From Halobacteria archaeon HArc-gm2 (GTDB taxonomy: Archaea; Halobacteriota; Halobacteria; Halobacteriales; Haloarculaceae), in assembly GCA_025517465.1 (NCBI GenBank), contig JAOPKE010000001.1:1-64000 (forward strand): a DNA stretch of 64,000 nt. The letters are read 5' to 3'. The notes under the pieces are model-generated. The model saw only the letters and a program-made list of their open reading frames with translations. It was not told the DNA's origin and did no database searches. This document shows positions 128 through 9,056 of the stretch, piece by piece. Both the position numbers and the translations under genes were made by a program. The number at the start of each line of letters is the position of its first letter. Within the stretch, counting starts at the first letter, position 1.

Positions 128-1999
128 CTAGTCCCGTCCGTGTCGGGTCAGGCAGTACGGCAGCCCCTGAATCTCCACGGGTTCGGAGTTGTCGGGCGAG
201 TAGACGACCATCTGGCCCTTCTCCATGTAGGGGACCTTCGATTCGAGGTTCGTCGGGATGTTCACCGCCGAGATTGCGTCCTCGTCGCCGAGGTTGAGGA
301 CGACCGTCGAGTTGATCTGTTTGAAAACCGGGTCGGCGATGTCCTGGGGGTCCTGGGTGATGAGGAACAGCCCCAGCCGTTCTTTCCGGCCCTGTTTCGC
401 GGCCTCGGTGAACTTCCCGATGACCTGGCGGGCCTGGACGTTGTCCGCGCCGGTGAGGAAGTTGTGGGCCTCGTCCATCCCGACGACCAGGGGCGTGTCC
501 TTGATGCGCTGGAAGTTCGGGTTGTTCGAGAGCTTCTCGTCGACGAGCATCGAGGCGAGCGCGAGGACGACCGTCGTCTTGCTCCGCGAGTTGTTGACGT
601 GGTACGTCGGGACGCAACTCAACTGGCCGGGGCGGACGAACTGGTCGACCAGATCGGTGATGGGCCGGGCGTCCTGGTCGAAGATGCCGTCGAAGCCATA
701 GGCGCGCCGCTTTATGGCGTCGAAGGTGGCCTCGTGGACCCGTCCCTGTTCGTCGAGTTCCTCCTTCAGCACGGGGTCGTCGAGGAACGTCCGGAACTGG
801 TCGTAGGTGCCGCCGGGGCCGTACTCGCGGCGGAAGCGGTCGAGCAGGAACTGGAGGGCGTTGTACTGGTTGTCGTTGAGCTGGCTGCCCGCGATGAGCC
901 AGGGGTTGTCGTACACCATCGTGAACGGGATGGTGAACTCGACCTGCTCGGCGCGGTGGTGGCTGGCCGAGTAGTCGGCGCCCTCGACCTTCGGGACGAA
1001 CGCCGTCGTCTGCTCGTGACCGCCGTAGGCGATGCCCTCGCGCTCGCAGCGCCGGGCGAACTCCTGAGACAGGTCGCCATCGCCGTGCATCTGGGAGTAC
1101 TCGTCCTGCGGGTCGAACATGACGACGCAGGGGGCGGCCTCGCGGTTCTCCCCCTCGACGGGATAGGAGCGCTCGTCGGCGAGGTACTGCCGGAGGACGT
1201 TCTTCGAGGCGTGGGTCTTCCCCGACCCCGTCCCGCCCGCGACGAGCGTGTGGCGGAAGACGAGCGGGTCGCCCTCCGAGTAGTCGTCCTTCAGCCGGTA
1301 GTCGATGGTCGGCGGTTCGGCGGCGGTCCGGACCTTCTCGCCGCCGACTGAGAGGTGGCCAAGGAAGACGCCGTCCTCCGGAATCTTCAGCCCGGTCTTG
1401 ATCTCGTTCTTGTCGGTGGCCTGCCGAACCACGGTCTCGGGCTTCGGCACGCGGTCGGTCATTCGGCGCTTGAGCCCGTCCTCGTCCTGGTAGAGGACGG
1501 CGACGGGTTCCAGTTCGGCCATGAACTTGAAGTCCTGTTCGTCGATGCCGCCGGAACGCATCGCCCGGCGGGCGTGGATCTCGGTAGCGTCGTCGGCGCG
1601 GAACTCCTGGGCGTACTCCAGGCCGGTGATCCGGCAGAACAGCCGCTCGCCGTCCGGATAGGGCGCCAGCAGGTACTTGCCGATGCGGACGTCCGAGCGG
1701 TTGCCGACGGTGACGTAGGCCCGCAGGCAGGTCTCCATCTCGTCCTCGCTGATGGTCAGCCCCTCCGAGGCCGAGAGGACGCCCAGGCCGTGGTCCTGCC
1801 CCGTCGCTTCGACGGCGAACTCCTCGAAGTCGTCCGTGGCGGTGTCGTCAGCCGATTCTCGTCCGCCCGGCGCGTCCTCGGCCGCAGTCCGCTGGCTCGC
1901 GGGTCCTTCGTCCCCGCTCGCCCCTTCCGAGGGCTCACTCCGTTCGCCCTCGCGGCCGTCGTCGCCCTCAAATTCCGTGAAATCCCCGAGATCGGACAT
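128..1999 (-). CDS. herA: HerA-like ATPase (DUF87/FtsK-HerA superfamily)
   Basis: A 623-residue P-loop ATPase of the HerA/FtsK class, expected to form a hexameric DNA translocase that works with the NurA nuclease in double-strand-break end resection. Walker A is GGTGSGKT at about residues 255-262. Walker B is VVGMDEAH at about 505-512. A sensor-like LITQDPQD follows near 546-553. A HAS-barrel-like region precedes the ATPase at about 85-250. The ATG at 1999 was chosen over an upstream in-frame Met because the protein then starts MSDLGDFTEF, a normal acidic haloarchaeal N-terminus. Residues 15-55 are low complexity and overlap palindromic GC-rich DNA. A NurA-type gene lies 3.7 kb away on the same strand (5669-6916), which supports a HerA role, although the pair is not adjacent. 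HerA assignment within DUF87 is likely but not proven. Confidence 0.85.
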   Translation of the reverse strand: MSDLGDFTEFEGDDGREGERSEPSEGASGDEGPASQRTAAEDAPGGRESADDTATDDFEEFAVEATGQDHGLGVLSASEGLTISEDEMETCLRAYVTVGNRSDVRIGKYLLAPYPDGERLFCRITGLEYAQEFRADDATEIHARRAMRSGGIDEQDFKFMAELEPVAVLYQDEDGLKRRMTDRVPKPETVVRQATDKNEIKTGLKIPEDGVFLGHLSVGGEKVRTAAEPPTIDYRLKDDYSEGDPLVFRHTLVAGGTGSGKTHASKNVLRQYLADERSYPVEGENREAAPCVVMFDPQDEYSQMHGDGDLSQEFARRCEREGIAYGGHEQTTAFVPKVEGADYSASHHRAEQVEFTIPFTMVYDNPWLIAGSQLNDNQYNALQFLLDRFRREYGPGGTYDQFRTFLDDPVLKEELDEQGRVHEATFDAIKRRAYGFDGIFDQDARPITDLVDQFVRPGQLSCVPTYHVNNSRSKTTVVLALASMLVDEKLSNNPNFQRIKDTPLVVGMDEAHNFLTGADNVQARQVIGKFTEAAKQGRKERLGLFLITQDPQDIADPVFKQINSTVVLNLGDEDAISAVNIPTNLESKVPYMEKGQMVVYSPDNSEPVEIQGLPYCLTRHGRD

Positions 2000-2957: not shown

Positions 2958-3305
2958 ATGCTACAGATCAGTGGGAGTGCCGGTGGAACGACGCTGACGG
3001 GGACGCTCTACGAGGACGGCGAGCGCGCGCCCTCGTTCCGGGGTGCACCGGAAGAGAACGCCGCGTTCGTCTGGGTCTGCGACGAGTTCTACGCGGTCGC
3101 CTCCGGGGGGGCCGTCCAGCGCTTCGGCGACGAAGACGTCCGCGTCGCCTTCGAATCGCCGATGCCCCGGGGGTTCGAGGACCGCGAGCAAGCCGTCGCC
3201 GCCGCGAAAGAACACGTCCGGACGCAGTTCGCCCGGGTCGGCGTGCCAGCGGCGGACGTCGACGTTACCGTCGAACGGTTCGAAGCGGCCGGCGGCACGG
3301 CGTGA
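2958..3305 (+). CDS. Conserved haloarchaeal protein of unknown function
   Basis: A 115-residue acidic, soluble protein without membrane segments or recognisable catalytic motifs. It begins with a short beta-rich segment (LQISGSAGGTTLTGTLYEDG) and ends in a charged helix (EQAVAAAKEHVRTQFARVGV). It resembles a small haloarchaeal DUF family (possibly DUF7113), a label I offer from memory. It lies between the EEP gene and the ATP-grasp gene, in the same direction. A TATA-like stretch between it and the ATP-grasp gene suggests it is not necessarily in that operon, so a role with the peptide cassette is open. Confidence 0.7.
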   Translation: MLQISGSAGGTTLTGTLYEDGERAPSFRGAPEENAAFVWVCDEFYAVASGGAVQRFGDEDVRVAFESPMPRGFEDREQAVAAAKEHVRTQFARVGVPAADVDVTVERFEAAGGTA

Positions 3306-3332
3306 GGCGCGGGATAGAACCAGCGAAAGCTC

Positions 3333-3344
3333 TTTTTATTTTAC
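3333..3344 (+). promoter_or_regulatory. TATA-like promoter of the ATP-grasp/M50 operon
   Basis: The stretch TTTTTATTTTAC is a marked AT island in GC-rich DNA. Its centre lies about 28 bases before the ATG at 3367, the spacing expected when an archaeal TATA box drives a leaderless mRNA. No Shine-Dalgarno sequence is needed or seen. This is inferred from sequence composition only. Confidence 0.5.
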
Positions 3345-3366
3345 GGCCGACAGTTCGGATCGATAC

Positions 3367-4344
3367 ATGGTGGTCGCGCTCCTAGGAACGCGGGACGATC
3401 CGCAGGTCCGTTCGGTCGGAGCGGCCCTCGACGACCGGGACGCCGAGTGGGAACTGTGGAACTCGGGAGACTGGCCCGGAGCGGAGCCGGTTTCCCTGTC
3501 GGTCGGTTCCGGAACTGGTCCCTCCGAGACAGATTCCCATTCTAACTTCGATTCCGAGACCGCTCCATCGGGGACCCGGACCGTCGTCGGTGAGCCAGTT
3601 AATCCGGAACGGATCACGTCGGTGTACCTCCGACGCATCGGCCTCGACCCCCGCGGTCCCGAGTTCGAGGACGACCTGGCCGACCGCCCGTACTCGCTGG
3701 TCAACCAGGTCCGGGAGTACCGGGGCCTGGTCACGTCGGTCCTCAGGCACCTCGAATCGCGCGGCGTCCCGGTCGTCAATCCGGTCGCGGCCCAGTCGGT
3801 GCACGGACTCAAACCGTACCAGCTCGCCGCGTTCGAGGACGCCGGGATCCCCGTGCCCGACACGCTGGCGACGAACGACCCCGACGCCGCGAGCGCGTTC
3901 GTCGAGCGGGTCGACGACGCCGTCTACAAACCCGTCGGCGGCGGCGGGCACGCCCGGTCCATAACGCCGGCTGATCTCGATTCGGACCGTCTCGACCGCC
4001 TCGCCAACGCCCCCGTCCAGTTCCAGGAACGCGTCGCGGGCGAGAACTACCGCCTGTTCGTCGTCGGCGGCGACGTCGTCGCGACGGGCCACATCCGGAG
4101 CGAGGAACTCGACTACCGCCTCGGCGAGCACGAGGTGGACTCGGCGTCGGTCCCTTCGGCCGTCCAACGTGCCGCGGTCCGCGCCGCCGACGTCCTCGAC
4201 CTGCGCTTCGCGGGCGTCGACGTCATCGAACGGGACGGCGAGTTCGCCGTCCTCGAAGCGAACCCCTCGCCGATGTTCGCCGCCTTCGACGAGCGGGCGG
4301 GCACCGACGTCGCCGGCCACCTCGCCGCCTTCCTCGACCGATGA
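3367..4344 (+). CDS. RimK-like ATP-grasp ligase, candidate graspetide macrocyclase
   Basis: A 325-residue ATP-grasp enzyme. The pre-ATP-grasp region ends in VVNPVAAQSVHGLKPYQL (about residues 136-153) and VPDTLATNDP (about 163-172). The latter closely resembles the IPxTLVTNDP-type motif seen in MvdD/PsnB graspetide cyclases. The ATP-grasp core shows VYKPVGGGGHAR (about 186-197), FQERVAGENYRLFVVGG (about 219-235) and the metal/ATP-binding FAVLEANPSPMF (about 293-304). Such enzymes join a carboxylate to a nucleophile through an acyl phosphate; the microviridin/plesiocin branch forms side-chain esters or amides in a precursor peptide. The gene overlaps the next one, an M50 protease, by 4 bases. 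It lies 0.9 kb from a small ORF with a TTxxxxEE core motif (5289-5438). That context, more than the fold alone, points to peptide modification. A RimK-type amino-acid ligase is the alternative. Confidence 0.85.
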   Translation: MVVALLGTRDDPQVRSVGAALDDRDAEWELWNSGDWPGAEPVSLSVGSGTGPSETDSHSNFDSETAPSGTRTVVGEPVNPERITSVYLRRIGLDPRGPEFEDDLADRPYSLVNQVREYRGLVTSVLRHLESRGVPVVNPVAAQSVHGLKPYQLAAFEDAGIPVPDTLATNDPDAASAFVERVDDAVYKPVGGGGHARSITPADLDSDRLDRLANAPVQFQERVAGENYRLFVVGGDVVATGHIRSEELDYRLGEHEVDSASVPSAVQRAAVRAADVLDLRFAGVDVIERDGEFAVLEANPSPMFAAFDERAGTDVAGHLAAFLDR

Positions 4345-5249
4345 GCGACGACGCGGAGGGGACGTTCGGGTTCACGTGGGGCGAGACGGAGGGGCTGGTG
4401 TGGTTGCGCGACGACGCGGGCAACTACAAGCGGGTCGACCGCGAGTTGCTGGTCGACCTCAGGGCCGTCGCGGCGGGCGAGCGCCGGGTCGCGGACCTCT
4501 CCGAGAAGAAGCGCGCGGCCGTCGACCACCTCCGCGAGGCCGACTTTCTCCACTCCGGTGGCTCCGTCACCCGTCACGAGACGCCACCCGGTGTCACGCT
4601 CTGGCCGCGGCTCCTCGCGTTCGGTGTCGCGTTCGCCCTGCTCACGGCCTACGTCGGCTACCGGCTCCTGATCACCGGCATGCCTGTCGGCACCGGGACG
4701 GCGCCGAGCCTCGGCGGCGGCGTCGTCGGTGACCTGCTCCTCGCCGTCCCGGTGTTCGTCGCACTCGCGCTCGTTCACGAGGCGGGCCACTACTTCGCCG
4801 CCCGCCCGTACTTCCGCCCGTCGCTGGACCTGACGCTCCTCAACGGCGTCTTCCCGGCGTTCGTGACGCGAACGAACGACGCCTGGCGCTGCCCGCGAAG
4901 CGTCCGCGTCTGGATCAACCTCGCCGGGCCGGTCCTGGACTGTCTGCAGTGTCTCGTCCTCGCGGCGCTCTCGCTGTTCGTCTTCCCCGCGTCGTACCTG
5001 CTCGCCGTCCTCCCCATTTTCGAGTACGTCCGGCTCCTCTTCTCGCTGAACCCTTTCGTCCGCGGCGACGGCTACTGGATGCTGGTCGACTGGTTCGGCG
5101 CGACGAACCTCCACACCCGAGGCGTCCGCGACCTGAAGAACCTCGAACCGAGCGTCGGTGCGCTATACGCGACGCTCTCGACGGCCGTCACGCTGTTCGG
5201 CCTCGTGATGATGGGATACGTCGCCGCGACCCTCGCCGGCCTCGTGTGA
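4341..5249 (+). CDS. Membrane M50-type zinc protease with PqqD-like N-terminal domain
   Basis: A 302-residue integral membrane metalloprotease. Residues about 15-75 look like a PqqD/RiPP-recognition (RRE-like) winged domain: YKRVDRELLVDLRAVAAG, then a helix ending in LREADFLHSGG. Membrane segments follow at about 88-110 and 128-148. HEAGH at 146-150 gives the two zinc histidines and the catalytic Glu. NPFVRGDGYWMLVDW (about 237-251) supplies the distal Asp and matches the DGYY signature of peptide zinc metalloproteases found in RiPP and bacteriocin loci. At least two more membrane segments occupy about 205-230 and 275-300. The start codon overlaps the stop of the ATP-grasp gene (ATGA), implying translational coupling. 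The likely job is leader removal or export-linked cleavage of the peptide modified by the ATP-grasp enzyme; this is inference from domains and context. Confidence 0.85.
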   Translation: MSDDAEGTFGFTWGETEGLVWLRDDAGNYKRVDRELLVDLRAVAAGERRVADLSEKKRAAVDHLREADFLHSGGSVTRHETPPGVTLWPRLLAFGVAFALLTAYVGYRLLITGMPVGTGTAPSLGGGVVGDLLLAVPVFVALALVHEAGHYFAARPYFRPSLDLTLLNGVFPAFVTRTNDAWRCPRSVRVWINLAGPVLDCLQCLVLAALSLFVFPASYLLAVLPIFEYVRLLFSLNPFVRGDGYWMLVDWFGATNLHTRGVRDLKNLEPSVGALYATLSTAVTLFGLVMMGYVAATLAGLV

Positions 5250-5288
5250 GCGACCGGTGTGAGTCGCGACGGTTCGGGGATCGATACC

Positions 5289-5438
5289 TCAACAACCCGT
5301 CTCGAAACACGCCATCGTGATCGGACCGCCACCGCCCTCCTCGCCCACGGCGAGTGTGGTCGGCGTCGCGATGGACGCGTTCGTCCGCTCTTCCAGGTCT
5401 TCGACGAAGTGGACTTGTTCGTCTGAACTCATGTCCAT
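5289..5438 (-). CDS. Candidate graspetide (omega-ester RiPP) precursor peptide
   Basis: A 49-codon ORF convergent with the ATP-grasp/M50 operon, 39 bases past its end. The first part (residues 1-26) is an acidic leader with a helix-like HFVEDLEERTN. Residues 27-34 read TTLAVGEE, an exact fit to TTxxxxEE, the core motif of plesiocin-type graspetides in which two Thr esterify two Glu. A GGGGP linker follows. Residues 40-47 read ITMACFET, a second repeat that keeps the inner Thr (41) and inner Glu (46) but has lost the outer pair. The peptide ends G-C. Cysteines at 44 and 49 are unusual for a haloarchaeal protein. The start at 5438 fits a leaderless mRNA; an in-frame ATG at 5432 would give 47 residues. 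Small size makes chance ORFs possible, but the motif beside these two enzymes is hard to explain by chance. Confidence 0.75.
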   Translation of the reverse strand: MDMSSDEQVHFVEDLEERTNASIATPTTLAVGEEGGGGPITMACFETGC

Positions 5439-5460
5439 CCGACATGTGAATGTGAAGGGG

Positions 5461-5470
5461 TAAAAATATT
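5461..5470 (-). promoter_or_regulatory. TATA-like promoter of the precursor-peptide gene
   Basis: On the minus strand this reads AATATTTTTA, within a strongly AT-rich patch (5461-5500) that stands out from the GC-rich surroundings. It is centred about 27 bases upstream of the ATG at 5438, the position expected for a leaderless archaeal transcript. The peptide gene would therefore have its own promoter, separate from that of its putative modification enzymes. Confidence 0.5.
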
Positions 5471-5499
5471 ACTCCTATAATACTTAATATTAGCTGTTT

Positions 5500-5668
5500 T
5501 TCACAGGGAGGCCGTTCGTCCGGCGACCGCTCACGGGTCGCTTCGCTCCCCGTTCGCTATGAAGATGGTTCCTCCCTGCGGTCGGAACCATCCTACTCCT
5601 CGCGTGTCGCTCCTTTCAGTCGCTCCCGCTCGTCGTTGCGGAGGCCCCTCACTTCGTTCGGCGCCTCC
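5500..5668. repeat. Palindrome-rich non-coding stretch between peptide gene and nurA
   Basis: This gene-free stretch is built of short GC-rich inverted motifs of the CGCTTCGCTCC type found throughout the intergenic DNA of this window. It contains a clear hairpin with arms GATGGTTCC (5564-5572) and GGAACCATC (5584-5592). No start codon with a plausible reading frame is present. It may serve as a transcript end for nurA (which ends at 5669) or may be a decayed repeat. Confidence 0.4.
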
Positions 5669-6916
5669 CTACTCCTCGAACGCCACCCCCCACCGCTTAT
5701 CGTTGTATTCCCGCTGTTGCTCGCTGTCGAACTGTCGTTCGATCTCCTCGCGGAGCGCTTCCTTCTCGTCGCCGCCGATGCGGGCGAGTTCGTCGGCCTT
5801 GCGAACCGCCAGCGGCGGGCCGCGCTCGGCCGCGACGTCGGCGAGCACCTGGCGGGTGATGGCGTCCCGCGTCTCCTCGTCGCGGGTGATGCCGTAGGGC
5901 GATTCCACTCTGTACAGCAGGTCCTCGCGCGGGTCGTAGACGACGAAGAAGGTGACCTCGTAGGCCGCTGGTTCGAGTTCCCGCTCGATACCGAGGGCGT
6001 CGCCGCTGGTCGAGAGCACCTCGTCCGTCCCGACGCGCGAGCGGAACCAGTTGGTGAACGTCAGCGCGTCCGTGATGCGCTCGCCCTCGTCGTCGTGGCG
6101 TTCGAGCACCTGCCGGAAGAACGCGGCGTCGTTGGCCCACGGCGCGTTGCCCTGTTCTTTCCGCACGATGCGGGTGATGGCCTTCGACGTCGTCGACTTG
6201 ACGAACCCGGCTAGGGCGGCGTCGCGCTCGACGAACTCCTCGACGAGGGCGACGTAGTTTGCCACCACGTCGAGCACGTCGTCCTTGACGAGCAGTTCGG
6301 CCAGTTCCGGGTCGTGGTCGGCCCACTGGAGGAGCCCGGTGGGGTAGACGGGGCCGTCGAGAACGAGGAGGTCGTCGACCAGGTCGGCCTCCTTGAGCGC
6401 GTGCTCGCTCTCGGCGAGGTAGAGCGCCAGCGCGTGGACGACGTCCTGTTCGTACCGGTCGACGCGGGGGACCTGGAGGATGCGCTCGCGGGCGTACCCC
6501 TCGTCCTGCATCGTCCACTCCTCGCCCAGCGCCACCGAGACGTCGTTCGAGTGGGCGGTCATGACGATGGTCCGGCCGCGGTGGAGGTCCAGGTCGGAGG
6601 GCACCGACGCCATCGCGGCCTGGGCCACGTCGAGGACGATGCCGTTCTTGAACGTCGTCGGGTTGATCGTCCCCGAGTCCAGTCCGTGCTGGGTTGGGAA
6701 CGGGGGCTCCTGAAGCGCCGCGTCCTGGACGTCGACCAGCATCCGGGCCTGCTCCTCCACCGGTTCGAGGACGGGCTTTCCATCAGAAAGAAGCGGGTCG
6801 AGCAGGTCGTTCCACACGGTGCCGGCGAAGTCCCGGTGGTCGGTCGAGTCGACCCCCTGCGTGATGCGGCCCGCGAGTCGCGCGATGCCGTCGACGTGGA
6901 CCGGGTCCAGGGTCAT
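5669..6916 (-). CDS. nurA: NurA-type nuclease
   Basis: A 415-residue NurA-domain protein. NurA is a 5'-3' exo/endonuclease that acts with the HerA translocase in archaeal DNA end resection. The RNase H-like core is visible as NGIVLDVAQAAM (about residues 91-102, with the likely catalytic Asp 96), a following strand RTIVMTAH (about 115-122), and LLVLDGPVYPTG (about 183-194), a typical second acidic motif of the family. The C-terminal half carries the AITRIVRKEQGN and THQL-like helical regions and ends with a charged helix. The partner candidate is the HerA-like ATPase at 128-1999 on the same strand; a four-gene block lies between them. The protein from 6969 lies just upstream in the same direction with a 52-base gap. 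Confidence 0.8.
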   Translation of the reverse strand: MTLDPVHVDGIARLAGRITQGVDSTDHRDFAGTVWNDLLDPLLSDGKPVLEPVEEQARMLVDVQDAALQEPPFPTQHGLDSGTINPTTFKNGIVLDVAQAAMASVPSDLDLHRGRTIVMTAHSNDVSVALGEEWTMQDEGYARERILQVPRVDRYEQDVVHALALYLAESEHALKEADLVDDLLVLDGPVYPTGLLQWADHDPELAELLVKDDVLDVVANYVALVEEFVERDAALAGFVKSTTSKAITRIVRKEQGNAPWANDAAFFRQVLERHDDEGERITDALTFTNWFRSRVGTDEVLSTSGDALGIERELEPAAYEVTFFVVYDPREDLLYRVESPYGITRDEETRDAITRQVLADVAAERGPPLAVRKADELARIGGDEKEALREEIERQFDSEQQREYNDKRWGVAFEE

Positions 6917-6968
6917 TGCTCGAACCCTTCTTCGGGTTCGGGTTAAGTGTTTTCTCGGCCGTCTACGC

Positions 6969-7391
6969 TTAGCCGGATTCTTCCTGCAGCAGTCGTTCGA
7001 GCACTTCCGCGACTTCTTCGTACTCGCGCATCGTCAGCCCGTCGGTCGTGATGATGACGCCCTGGCGTTCGGTGGTGATCCGGAGGAGATAGCCGTTCTC
7101 GAAGACGCGGACGGTGAAGTGATAGGGGCCGAGTTCGGTCGTCTGGTAGGCGTTCTGGGTCTCCTTGAAGTCGCGCCACTCGTGGCCGACGAACTCGTCG
7201 AGGTCGGCGTCGCGTTCCAGGTCCTCGCGGAGGTACAGCTGCTGGTAGTTCGCGCGGGTGAAGTACGTCACCGACCGGAGCGTGTCGCTCGTCGCGGCGC
7301 GCGAGGACGAGACGATCTCGTCGGCCAGTTCCTGCCGGATGATGCTCCCGCCCGTTTCGTCGTCATCGTCCAGTTCGGTCCCGTCGCTCAT
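6969..7391 (-). CDS. Conserved haloarchaeal protein of unknown function
   Basis: A 140-residue acidic soluble protein. The N-terminal 20 residues are disordered and Asp-rich. The rest looks like an alpha/beta fold with the segment GPYHFTVRVFENGYLLRITTERQGVIITTDGL, followed by a C-terminal helix (REYEEVAEVLERLLQEE). No membrane segment or known catalytic motif is seen. It resembles a haloarchaeal DUF (possibly DUF7522; from memory). It is directly upstream of nurA on the same strand and may be co-transcribed, but no function can be assigned. Confidence 0.75.
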   Translation of the reverse strand: MSDGTELDDDDETGGSIIRQELADEIVSSSRAATSDTLRSVTYFTRANYQQLYLREDLERDADLDEFVGHEWRDFKETQNAYQTTELGPYHFTVRVFENGYLLRITTERQGVIITTDGLTMREYEEVAEVLERLLQEESG

Positions 7392-7535: not shown

Positions 7536-9056
7536 ATGCACGTCGGACTCGTCATCCTGGACGGCTGGGGCCTCAATCCCGACTCGACCGTCCGGGACGC
7601 TGTCGCCGCCGCCGAGACGCCGAACTTCGACCGCTACTGGGACGCCGGCGCCCACGGAACGCTCACGACGCACGGCCGGGCGGTTGGTCTCCCCGACGGC
7701 CAGATGGGCAACTCCGAGGTCGGCCACCTCAACATCGGCGCCGGCCGCGTCGTCAAGCAGGACTCCACCAGGGTTACGGACGACATCGAAAGTGGCGCCT
7801 TCTTCGAGAACGACCGACTGCTCTCTGCCTTCGAGTACGCGGAGGAGAACGACGGCCGCGTCCACTTCATGGGCCTCGTCTCCGACGGCGGCGTCCACTC
7901 CTACCAGAAACACCTCCACGCGCTGATCGAACTCGCCGCCCGGCGCGGGACGGAGGCCCTCACCCACGCCTTCACCGACGGCCGCGACACCTCGCCGAAG
8001 GGCGGCGAAAGCTACCTGAAGGCCCTGCAGGACCACATAGACGAGCACGGCACCGGCCACGTCGCCAGCGTCTCCGGGCGCTACTACGCGATGGACCGCG
8101 ACCAGAACTGGGACCGGACGATGCGGGCCTACGGCGCCATCGTCGACCACCAGGCCGACTACGGGGCGACTTCGGGTGTCGAGGCCGTCACCGACTCCTA
8201 CGCCCGCGGGGACACCGACGAGTTCGTCGAACCCACGGTTATCGAGGGCCAACCGGGGATGCAGGAGGGCGACGCCGCCGTCTTCTTCAACTTCCGCTCA
8301 GACCGGGCCCGACAGCTCACCCGGATGCTCGCGGACATCGAATCCGAGGCCTGGGACGTCCCGACGACGCCGCCGGACGTCCGGCTCGTCACGATGACCC
8401 AGTACGACGCCACCTTCGACCTGCCCGTCGCCTACCCGCCGAACCAGCCCGAAGACACCCTCGGCGAGGTGCTCGCCGACACCGGCCACACCCAGCTCCG
8501 ACTCGCCGAGACGGAGAAGTACGCCCACGTCACCTACTTCCTCAACGGCGGCCGCGAGGTCGAGTTCGACGGCGAGCGCCGCGAAATCGTCGAGAGCCCG
8601 GACGTGCCGACCTACGACCTCCGGCCCGAGATGAGCGCGCCAGTCGTGACCGACACCGCCATCGACGTCATCGAATCGGACGACCCGGACGTCCTGGTCC
8701 TCAACTACGCCAACCCCGACATGGTGGGCCACACCGGCGAGTTCGACGCCGCCGTCGAGGCCGTGGAGGCAGTGGACGAGCAACTCGGCCGCCTCGTCGA
8801 CGCCATCCAGTCCGCCGGCGGCCACGCCCTGATCACCGCCGACCACGGCAACGCCGACGACATGGGCACCGTCGACGACCCCTACACCGCCCACACGCTC
8901 AACCCTGTCCCGCTGATCTCCCTTGCGCCCGACGGGACGAGTGGTGGGCGGACCGCGCGCGACGGCGGCGCCCTCGCTGACCTTGCGCCGACGATTCTGG
9001 AGCTGATGGAGCTCGAGCAGCCCGACGCGATGACCGGTTCGTCGCTGCTGGAGTGA
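7536..9056 (+). CDS. gpmI: 2,3-bisphosphoglycerate-independent phosphoglycerate mutase
   Basis: A 506-residue cytoplasmic enzyme that interconverts 3- and 2-phosphoglycerate in glycolysis and gluconeogenesis using two manganese ions and a phosphoserine intermediate. LVILDGWG at residues 5-12 holds the first metal Asp. QMGNSEVGH (about 56-64) carries the catalytic Ser 60. The substrate-binding FTDGRDTSP lies at about 147-155. The second metal site is seen in LNYANPDMVGHTG (about 389-401) and ITADHGNAD (about 431-439). Length is that of bacterial-type GpmI, not the shorter ApgM of many archaea. It appears monocistronic; the downstream 0.7 kb holds a repeat element. Confidence 0.97.
   Translation: MHVGLVILDGWGLNPDSTVRDAVAAAETPNFDRYWDAGAHGTLTTHGRAVGLPDGQMGNSEVGHLNIGAGRVVKQDSTRVTDDIESGAFFENDRLLSAFEYAEENDGRVHFMGLVSDGGVHSYQKHLHALIELAARRGTEALTHAFTDGRDTSPKGGESYLKALQDHIDEHGTGHVASVSGRYYAMDRDQNWDRTMRAYGAIVDHQADYGATSGVEAVTDSYARGDTDEFVEPTVIEGQPGMQEGDAAVFFNFRSDRARQLTRMLADIESEAWDVPTTPPDVRLVTMTQYDATFDLPVAYPPNQPEDTLGEVLADTGHTQLRLAETEKYAHVTYFLNGGREVEFDGERREIVESPDVPTYDLRPEMSAPVVTDTAIDVIESDDPDVLVLNYANPDMVGHTGEFDAAVEAVEAVDEQLGRLVDAIQSAGGHALITADHGNADDMGTVDDPYTAHTLNPVPLISLAPDGTSGGRTARDGGALADLAPTILELMELEQPDAMTGSSLLE

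Follow-up and report, generated by a model that had tools for sequence, protein, structure and literature searches.

Plesiocin (Plesiocystis pacifica PsnA2/PsnB, graspetide group 2, PDB 7drm-7drp) derives from a precursor with four TTxxxxEE repeats and folds into hairpins of ring-within-ring esters that lie adjacent to each other (PMC13097080, PMC12291112); it inhibits serine proteases (PMC13097080). From this nested topology, the inner pair of a TTxxxxEE module is expected to be Thr2-Glu7 and the outer pair Thr1-Glu8. Microviridin (MdnA/B/C) likewise depends on an ATP-grasp cyclase acting on a leader-bearing precursor, but with two ligases, another core, and cage-like interlocking rings. A 2026 survey lists 21,584 predicted graspetides, and its main text names archaea only as group 36, from Thermoprotea (PMC13097080), while a 2025 survey of archaeal RiPPs covers lanthipeptides, YcaO products, radical-SAM products and lasso peptides and leaves graspetides unmentioned (PMC12144867). 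M50 proteases act in other RiPP pathways, where EpeP is thought to cleave and export, and a protease review, in the portion available, names no M50 protease for graspetides (PMC10885120). We found no earlier report of haloarchaeal graspetides in the open literature, although supplementary tables may hold members; graspetides predicted in Thermoprotea are known, and the plesiocin type in haloarchaea is apparently new.

The window (the whole 64,000-nucleotide stretch analysed, from Halobacteria archaeon HArc-gm2) contains at 3367-5438 a cassette of three genes in ~2.1 kb: those for an ATP-grasp ligase and an M50 membrane protease on one strand, and that for a small precursor on the other (Table 1). 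The cassette is very probably a minimal biosynthetic unit for a plesiocin-type (TTxxxxEE) graspetide, a reading drawn from gene anatomy, homology, co-occurrence, the conservation of leader and core, RRE-like and site-2-protease-like folds, and the absence of the cassette from the corresponding gene interval of two sister genomes. The original prediction had proposed a compact graspetide unit here; all of its open reading frames are present, the ligase and protease frames overlap by 4 bases as described, and comparison with related loci supports the proposed unit, since the ligase and the RRE-M50 gene are the only ones common to most loci and the precursor lies beside the ligase. With plesiocin the window shares the type of ligase, a closely similar leader and core, their spacing and tandem core modules; it differs in its archaeal host, its RRE-M50 protease partner and the opposite-strand position of its precursor, and where plesiocin has four repeats it carries a single canonical module together with a two-Cys ITxACxETGC module. 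Graspetide group 36 is likewise predicted to be archaeal, but is described from Thermoprotea only and has a chromosome-segregation-like partner (PMC13097080). These data extend plesiocin-type graspetides to haloarchaea, with a cassette small enough, at three genes, to be directly testable in a heterologous host.

Table 1. Features of the candidate graspetide cassette, in window coordinates.
Feature	Coordinates	Strand	Remarks
PsnB-like ATP-grasp ligase (predicted graspetide macrocyclase), 325 aa	3367..4344	+	PsnB is the best PDB relative
M50 site-2-type intramembrane metalloprotease with N-terminal RRE-like domain, 302 aa	4341..5249	+	Conserved motifs; structure model
RRE / PqqD-like winged-helix domain, M50 residues 6-72	4356..4556	+	Structure comparison
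HEAGH zinc-binding / catalytic motif	4776..4790	+	H146, E147, H150 invariant in 15 homologues
GDGY motif	5064..5075	+	P238, G242, D243, G244 invariant, N237 and Y245 nearly so (15 homologues)
Precursor peptide gene	5289..5438	-	49 aa from ATG 5438; 47 aa from likelier ATG 5432
Core module B, ITMACFETGC	5292..5321	-	Keeps the inner pair Thr41/Glu46 and gains Cys44 and Cys49, but has no outer Thr/Glu pair
Core module A, TTLAVGEE	5337..5360	-	Aligned to PsnA2 TTLAIGEE; nested esters and their connectivity predicted
Leader recognition motif HFVEDLEER	5385..5411	-	Aligns with FIEDL of PsnA2
TATA-like box TATTTTTA	5461..5468	-	29-36 nt upstream of the 5432 ATG; consensus match only

The ligase is clearly closer to PsnB, the plesiocin macrocyclase, than to RimK/LysX. 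A phmmer search of the PDB returned PsnB (7drm) at E 1.4e-45, with RimK next at 4e-12; the ligase-family profile found PsnB at 7.7e-78, and Foldseek found it at 2.0e-29 using an AlphaFold model of the ligase (pLDDT 88.9). This model aligns with PsnB at Z 31.2 (rmsd 2.2, 295 aligned residues), with lower structural similarity to MdnC (Z 26.5) and RimK (Z 25.0), and K188, R229, D285, E297 and N299 are conserved across the family. Pfam recognises only RimK-like and other general ATP-grasp domains. The top NCBIfam match is TIGR04187 (GRASP_SAV_5884; ATP-grasp RiPP maturase), at 108 bits against an unreached cut-off of 350, and rimK_fam ranks below it (80.7 bits, 143.4 needed; E 1.1e-22). In a tree of 83 ligases, built by a quick method and unsure in its deep branching order, the window ligase groups with haloarchaeal ligases, its neighbours being PsnB and enzymes of Hydrogenedentota, Bacillota and Omnitrophota, and the genome's own RimK-like paralogues stand apart with full support. 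Sequence, structure and tree all assign the enzyme to the MdnB/MdnC/PsnB kind; a placement inside RimK/LysX, against which the original prediction had asked to be checked, was not found, and RimK, LysX and MptN amino-acid ligases are not its closest relatives.

The M50 protein joins two domains that a second structural aligner resolved, Foldseek with the whole model having returned no significant match. From about residue 125 the AlphaFold model (pLDDT 85.9) resembles RseP (Z 10.5), SpoIVFB and the M. jannaschii site-2 protease S2P (Z 8.8; range Z 8.4-10.5), and the HExxH and NPxxxDG motifs of M50 site-2 proteases lie within a membrane-helix core, the supposed 'DGYY' motif reading NPFVRGDGYW in the actual sequence. 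Residues 6-72 match the lasso-peptide B1 RRE with bound leader (6jx3_B) at Z 7.1 over 66 residues and 2.1 A, a score that lies where common folds can match, followed by TbiB1 (5v1u, Z 5.8) and a sactipeptide thioether enzyme (5why, Z 5.2). At the level of fold, the three-strand, three-helix winged helix of an RRE is thus present, as the RRE/PqqD-like assignment had anticipated, and this N-terminal domain would bind the leader. The Pfam M50 score falls below the gathering score. Daptide and epipeptide proteases (NF041824; YydH/LiaK NF058609) are also M50 intramembrane metalloproteases of RiPP pathways but partner other RiPP classes, and they are the best NCBIfam matches of the window protein at scores far below both cut-offs (46.6/300 and 28/225 bits), which places it outside the daptide family.

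The precursor gene encodes MDMSSDEQVHFVEDLEERTNASIATPTTLAVGEEGGGGPITMACFETGC. It had been proposed as a 49-codon ORF containing TTLAVGEE, of which the ORF and the motif stand, but the true start is more probably the second ATG, because this codon is conserved in the sister genome G064 and lies ~30 nt downstream of the TATA-like box; the G064 copy begins there and keeps 45 of the 47 residues. Such a distance fits the leaderless transcripts of haloarchaea, and most of 25 precursors have a similar box between -27 and -38, a consensus match that is not proof of expression. Only 4 of 144 nt differ between the window and G064 precursors (97% identity), compared with 88.6% identity for the surrounding cassette; this lower rate of substitution, together with the profile matches beside ligases, takes the ORF beyond chance. 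It matches no Pfam or NCBIfam family, at least one public record leaves it unannotated, and in Halocatena salina the corresponding peptide is missing among the listed genes.

A precursor profile built from 13 rows has as its best PDB-chain match the PsnA2 peptide co-crystallised with PsnB (7drm_E), which contains FIEDLGKVTGGKGGPYTTLAIGEE. The match (E 0.5) is not significant alone, being weak because the peptide is short, and its weight comes from its coincidence with the ligase result. The aligned peptides pair FVEDL with FIEDL and TTLAVGEE with TTLAIGEE, and 16 residues separate the Phe from the first Thr in both, so that an FIEDL-like leader stands at the PsnA2 distance from the core; in other haloarchaeal peptides this spacing is ~15-17. 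H10, F11, L15, E17 and R18 of the leader are invariant in 13 precursors. In Haloarculaceae and Natrialbaceae, every near relative of the ligase has an adjacent short ORF bearing an [VI]HFVEDLEER-type leader, and the window precursor itself combines this conserved leader with a core of spaced Thr/Ser and Glu/Asp residues beside the ligase.

The core had been described from TTLAVGEE alone; that module is present, and a second one, ITMACFETGC, had gone unmentioned. By analogy with plesiocin, the esters predicted for module A are Thr27-Glu34 (outer) and Thr28-Glu33 (inner). Haloarchaeal cores fall into the types TTxAxGEE (window, L022, L023, L024, L040, L043), TTANHFEE (L024), TTxxxGECPEKC, in which Glu8 is replaced by Cys (L025-L028, L042), and [ITL]TxxCxETGC, in which Thr replaces Glu8 and, often, Ile or Leu replaces Thr1 (window, L022, L024, L040, L043). 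The plesiocin-type TTxxxxEE core is therefore found in the window and in five other loci, twice in L024, and module B also occurs in Halovivax, Natrinema and the QS_1_68_17 MAG. All four types retain the inner Thr/Glu pair, whereas TTxxxGECPEKC and [ITL]TxxCxETGC have lost the outer acid and gained two Cys. That pattern would be expected of modules closed by the inner ring only, perhaps plus a disulfide. The Halobacteriales MAG QS_1_68_17 (L024) has three tandem precursors with different cores (7210-7362, 7575-7730 and 7869-8051, +) and one ligase, with the M50 gene absent within the 17 kb fetched.

In the proposed pathway, the precursor would dock on the ligase via its HFVEDLEER leader, and the ligase would use ATP to phosphorylate the side-chain carboxylates of core Glu residues, then join them to Thr hydroxyls as omega-esters. 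TTLAVGEE would acquire two nested rings, Thr28-Glu33 inside Thr27-Glu34, and ITMACFETGC one ring, Thr41-Glu46, with Cys44 and Cys49 possibly closing a disulfide after secretion. The M50 protein, its RRE domain holding the leader, would cut the leader off at the membrane and may aid release of the product, which by analogy with plesiocin would be secreted and either inhibit serine proteases or serve in competition.

To place the cassette in a broader sample, we searched 391 Halobacteria genomes, defining a close ligase homologue by E below 1e-80. The precursor profile gave 7 strong matches (E <= 7.3e-17), in exactly the 7 genomes with a close ligase homologue, and every one adjoins the ligase; a ligase of this profile family is present in 20 of 392 genomes of the order (~5%). 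Within 2 kb of the haloarchaeal ligases, 27 short ORFs carry the leader motif and account for 25 of the 28 loci, whereas 342 kb of more distant DNA contains none. Because refinement of the motif drew on these same loci, the p-value of this comparison is not clean; the cleaner check comes from two held-out loci, fetched afterwards, both of which have such an ORF. Three of the conditions that the original prediction had named as refuting it turned out in its favour: TTxxxxEE-type ORFs do stand beside ligase homologues, conservation of the peptide reaches across genera and families, and the ligase lies apart from RimK/LysX. No adjacent precursor was recognised for the ligases of L035, L038 and L068. 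Weak profile matches in G189, G178 and G062 (E 0.006-0.035) were dismissed as chance. In G307, which has no ligase at the threshold used, L113 carries at 1375-1854 (-) DDVHSVEDLEERSNAPPMATVLAPAKKG, with HS for HF and a decayed core; from its sequence this apparent precursor looks like a relic. A search of PLSDB plasmids returned two records only, both already among the sampled genomes.

Related systems were also found in bacteria. Ligase relatives in Paenibacillus and Metabacillus accompany precursors with LFIxELE leaders and TTMALGEEGG repeats, and an Omnitrophota bin has TTLALGEEGG repeats beside a related ligase. These clusters (L056, L058, L053, L050, L054) share the PsnB-like ligase with the window, TTMALGEEGG-type cores being seen in L050, L053, L056 and L058, LFIxELE leaders in L053, L056 and L058, and an RRE-M50 gene just downstream of the ligase, as in the window, in L054, L056 and L058. 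They differ in their longer multi-repeat precursors, encoded upstream of the ligase on the same strand, and have neither ETGC nor CPEKC modules. In a Gastranaerophilales locus (L064, 3628-4212, -), a long multi-module precursor beside a related ligase alternates TTIASGEEGG and ITQSLNEEGG repeats.

In the 83-ligase tree a clade of its own (clade II) unites the Halorussus ligases with those of some other haloarchaea. The ORFs adjoining them are 28-40 residues long and pair a leader of the same type with hypervariable cores, as in MEHFVEDLNESDVEQTDRKADEAPPTPITWFGG, MEHFIENINEEDFAEVEERENTYYTGGCIAYC and MDHFIEELGEDDVSEVESRKNTRVTCPLSC. The ORFs lie at 8734-8835 (-) in L031, 9125-9223 (+) in L032, 6477-6584 (+) in L029, 7010-7096 (-) in L048, 8005-8097 (-) in L059, 9220-9330 (-) in L125 and 6849-6953 (+) in L126, and none of these seven precursors matches TTxxxxEE. 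Their cores vary between and within Halorussus genomes, and several, for example TPITWFGG, TYYTGGCIAYC and TRVTCPLSC, have no Asp or Glu and so offer no side-chain carboxylate through which the core could be cyclised. In Halorussus, a single precursor and a single M50 gene can also be accompanied by two divergent ligases in tandem (L034, 7688-9666; L052; L057), an arrangement that suggests two ligation steps. It is a speculative and rather unlikely proposal that clade II ligases activate the C-terminal carboxylate (or join Cys), giving lactone or thiolactone microcycles in a hypervariable signalling or competition system. If true, this would be a new ring chemistry in haloarchaeal peptides related to the plesiocin-type product of the window; the inner-pair-only modules with two Cys and the acid-free clade II cores would together test the ring-chemistry range of one enzyme family.

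Extending such chemistry to the whole family, with the ligase producing autoinducing-peptide-like pheromones through a C-terminal carboxylate or Cys thiol and TTxxxxEE representing one branch only, is very improbable. The short, hypervariable, partly acid-free clade II cores are what invite it, conserved leaders with divergent cores being typical of signalling and competition peptides, but the window peptide has a full TTxxxxEE module, the loci compared share no neighbouring gene for a sensor kinase or receptor, and we know of no C-terminal activation in the PsnB-type enzyme group. Those acid-free cores, for which a side-chain ring is not possible, would also suit a RimK/LysX-type ligase that makes no rings and instead extends the C-terminus of a protein or peptide by amino acids, or extends the small peptide itself in the manner of peptide-extending ATP-grasp enzymes. 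Such an enzyme would belong to the same ATP-grasp superfamily, as the rimK_fam match and the RimK structures at Z 25 reflect; this too has very little probability, given that sequence and structure both bring the ligase far nearer to PsnB, that the genome's separate RimK-like paralogues branch elsewhere, and that the window peptide has a plesiocin leader and core.

A more radical objection is that ORF 5289-5438 is a chance frame to which the ligase-M50 pair is unrelated. Its shortness, its position on the opposite strand, the lack of Pfam or NCBIfam matches and its omission from the Halocatena salina gene list are compatible with this, but strong profile matches occur exactly in the ligase genomes, leader and core have been retained between genera, families and bacterial phyla, and the frame has fewer substitutions than the surrounding DNA, which leaves the objection scarcely credible. 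Against the plesiocin-type reading itself we count the TIGR04187 score (108 versus 350 bits), the short PsnA2 match with its non-significant E-value, the modules without an outer Thr/Glu pair, the acid-free cores of several clade II precursors, the six loci that have no M50 gene next to the ligase, and the modest Z of the RRE match.

Across haloarchaea, the M50 gene adjoins the ligase in 22 of 28 loci (one match being partial), leaving 6 without an adjacent M50 gene, and Metabacillus, Paenibacillus P25 and one Omnitrophota bin likewise have a related gene after the ligase. Beyond local synteny, no transporter or regulator beside the cassette was common to the loci compared. An MMPL-like permease, so named from its sequence, lies near four Natrialbaceae loci and not elsewhere. 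In the window the cassette fills the gap at 3305-5669 between DUF7113 and nurA, with herA further upstream. In the sister genomes G063 and G061 (L129, L132) the cassette is absent from this interval and the aligned ends of DUF7113 and nurA are ~110 bp and <20 bp apart, respectively; since these neighbors nearly touch, the three genes behave as one discrete block, gained or lost together.
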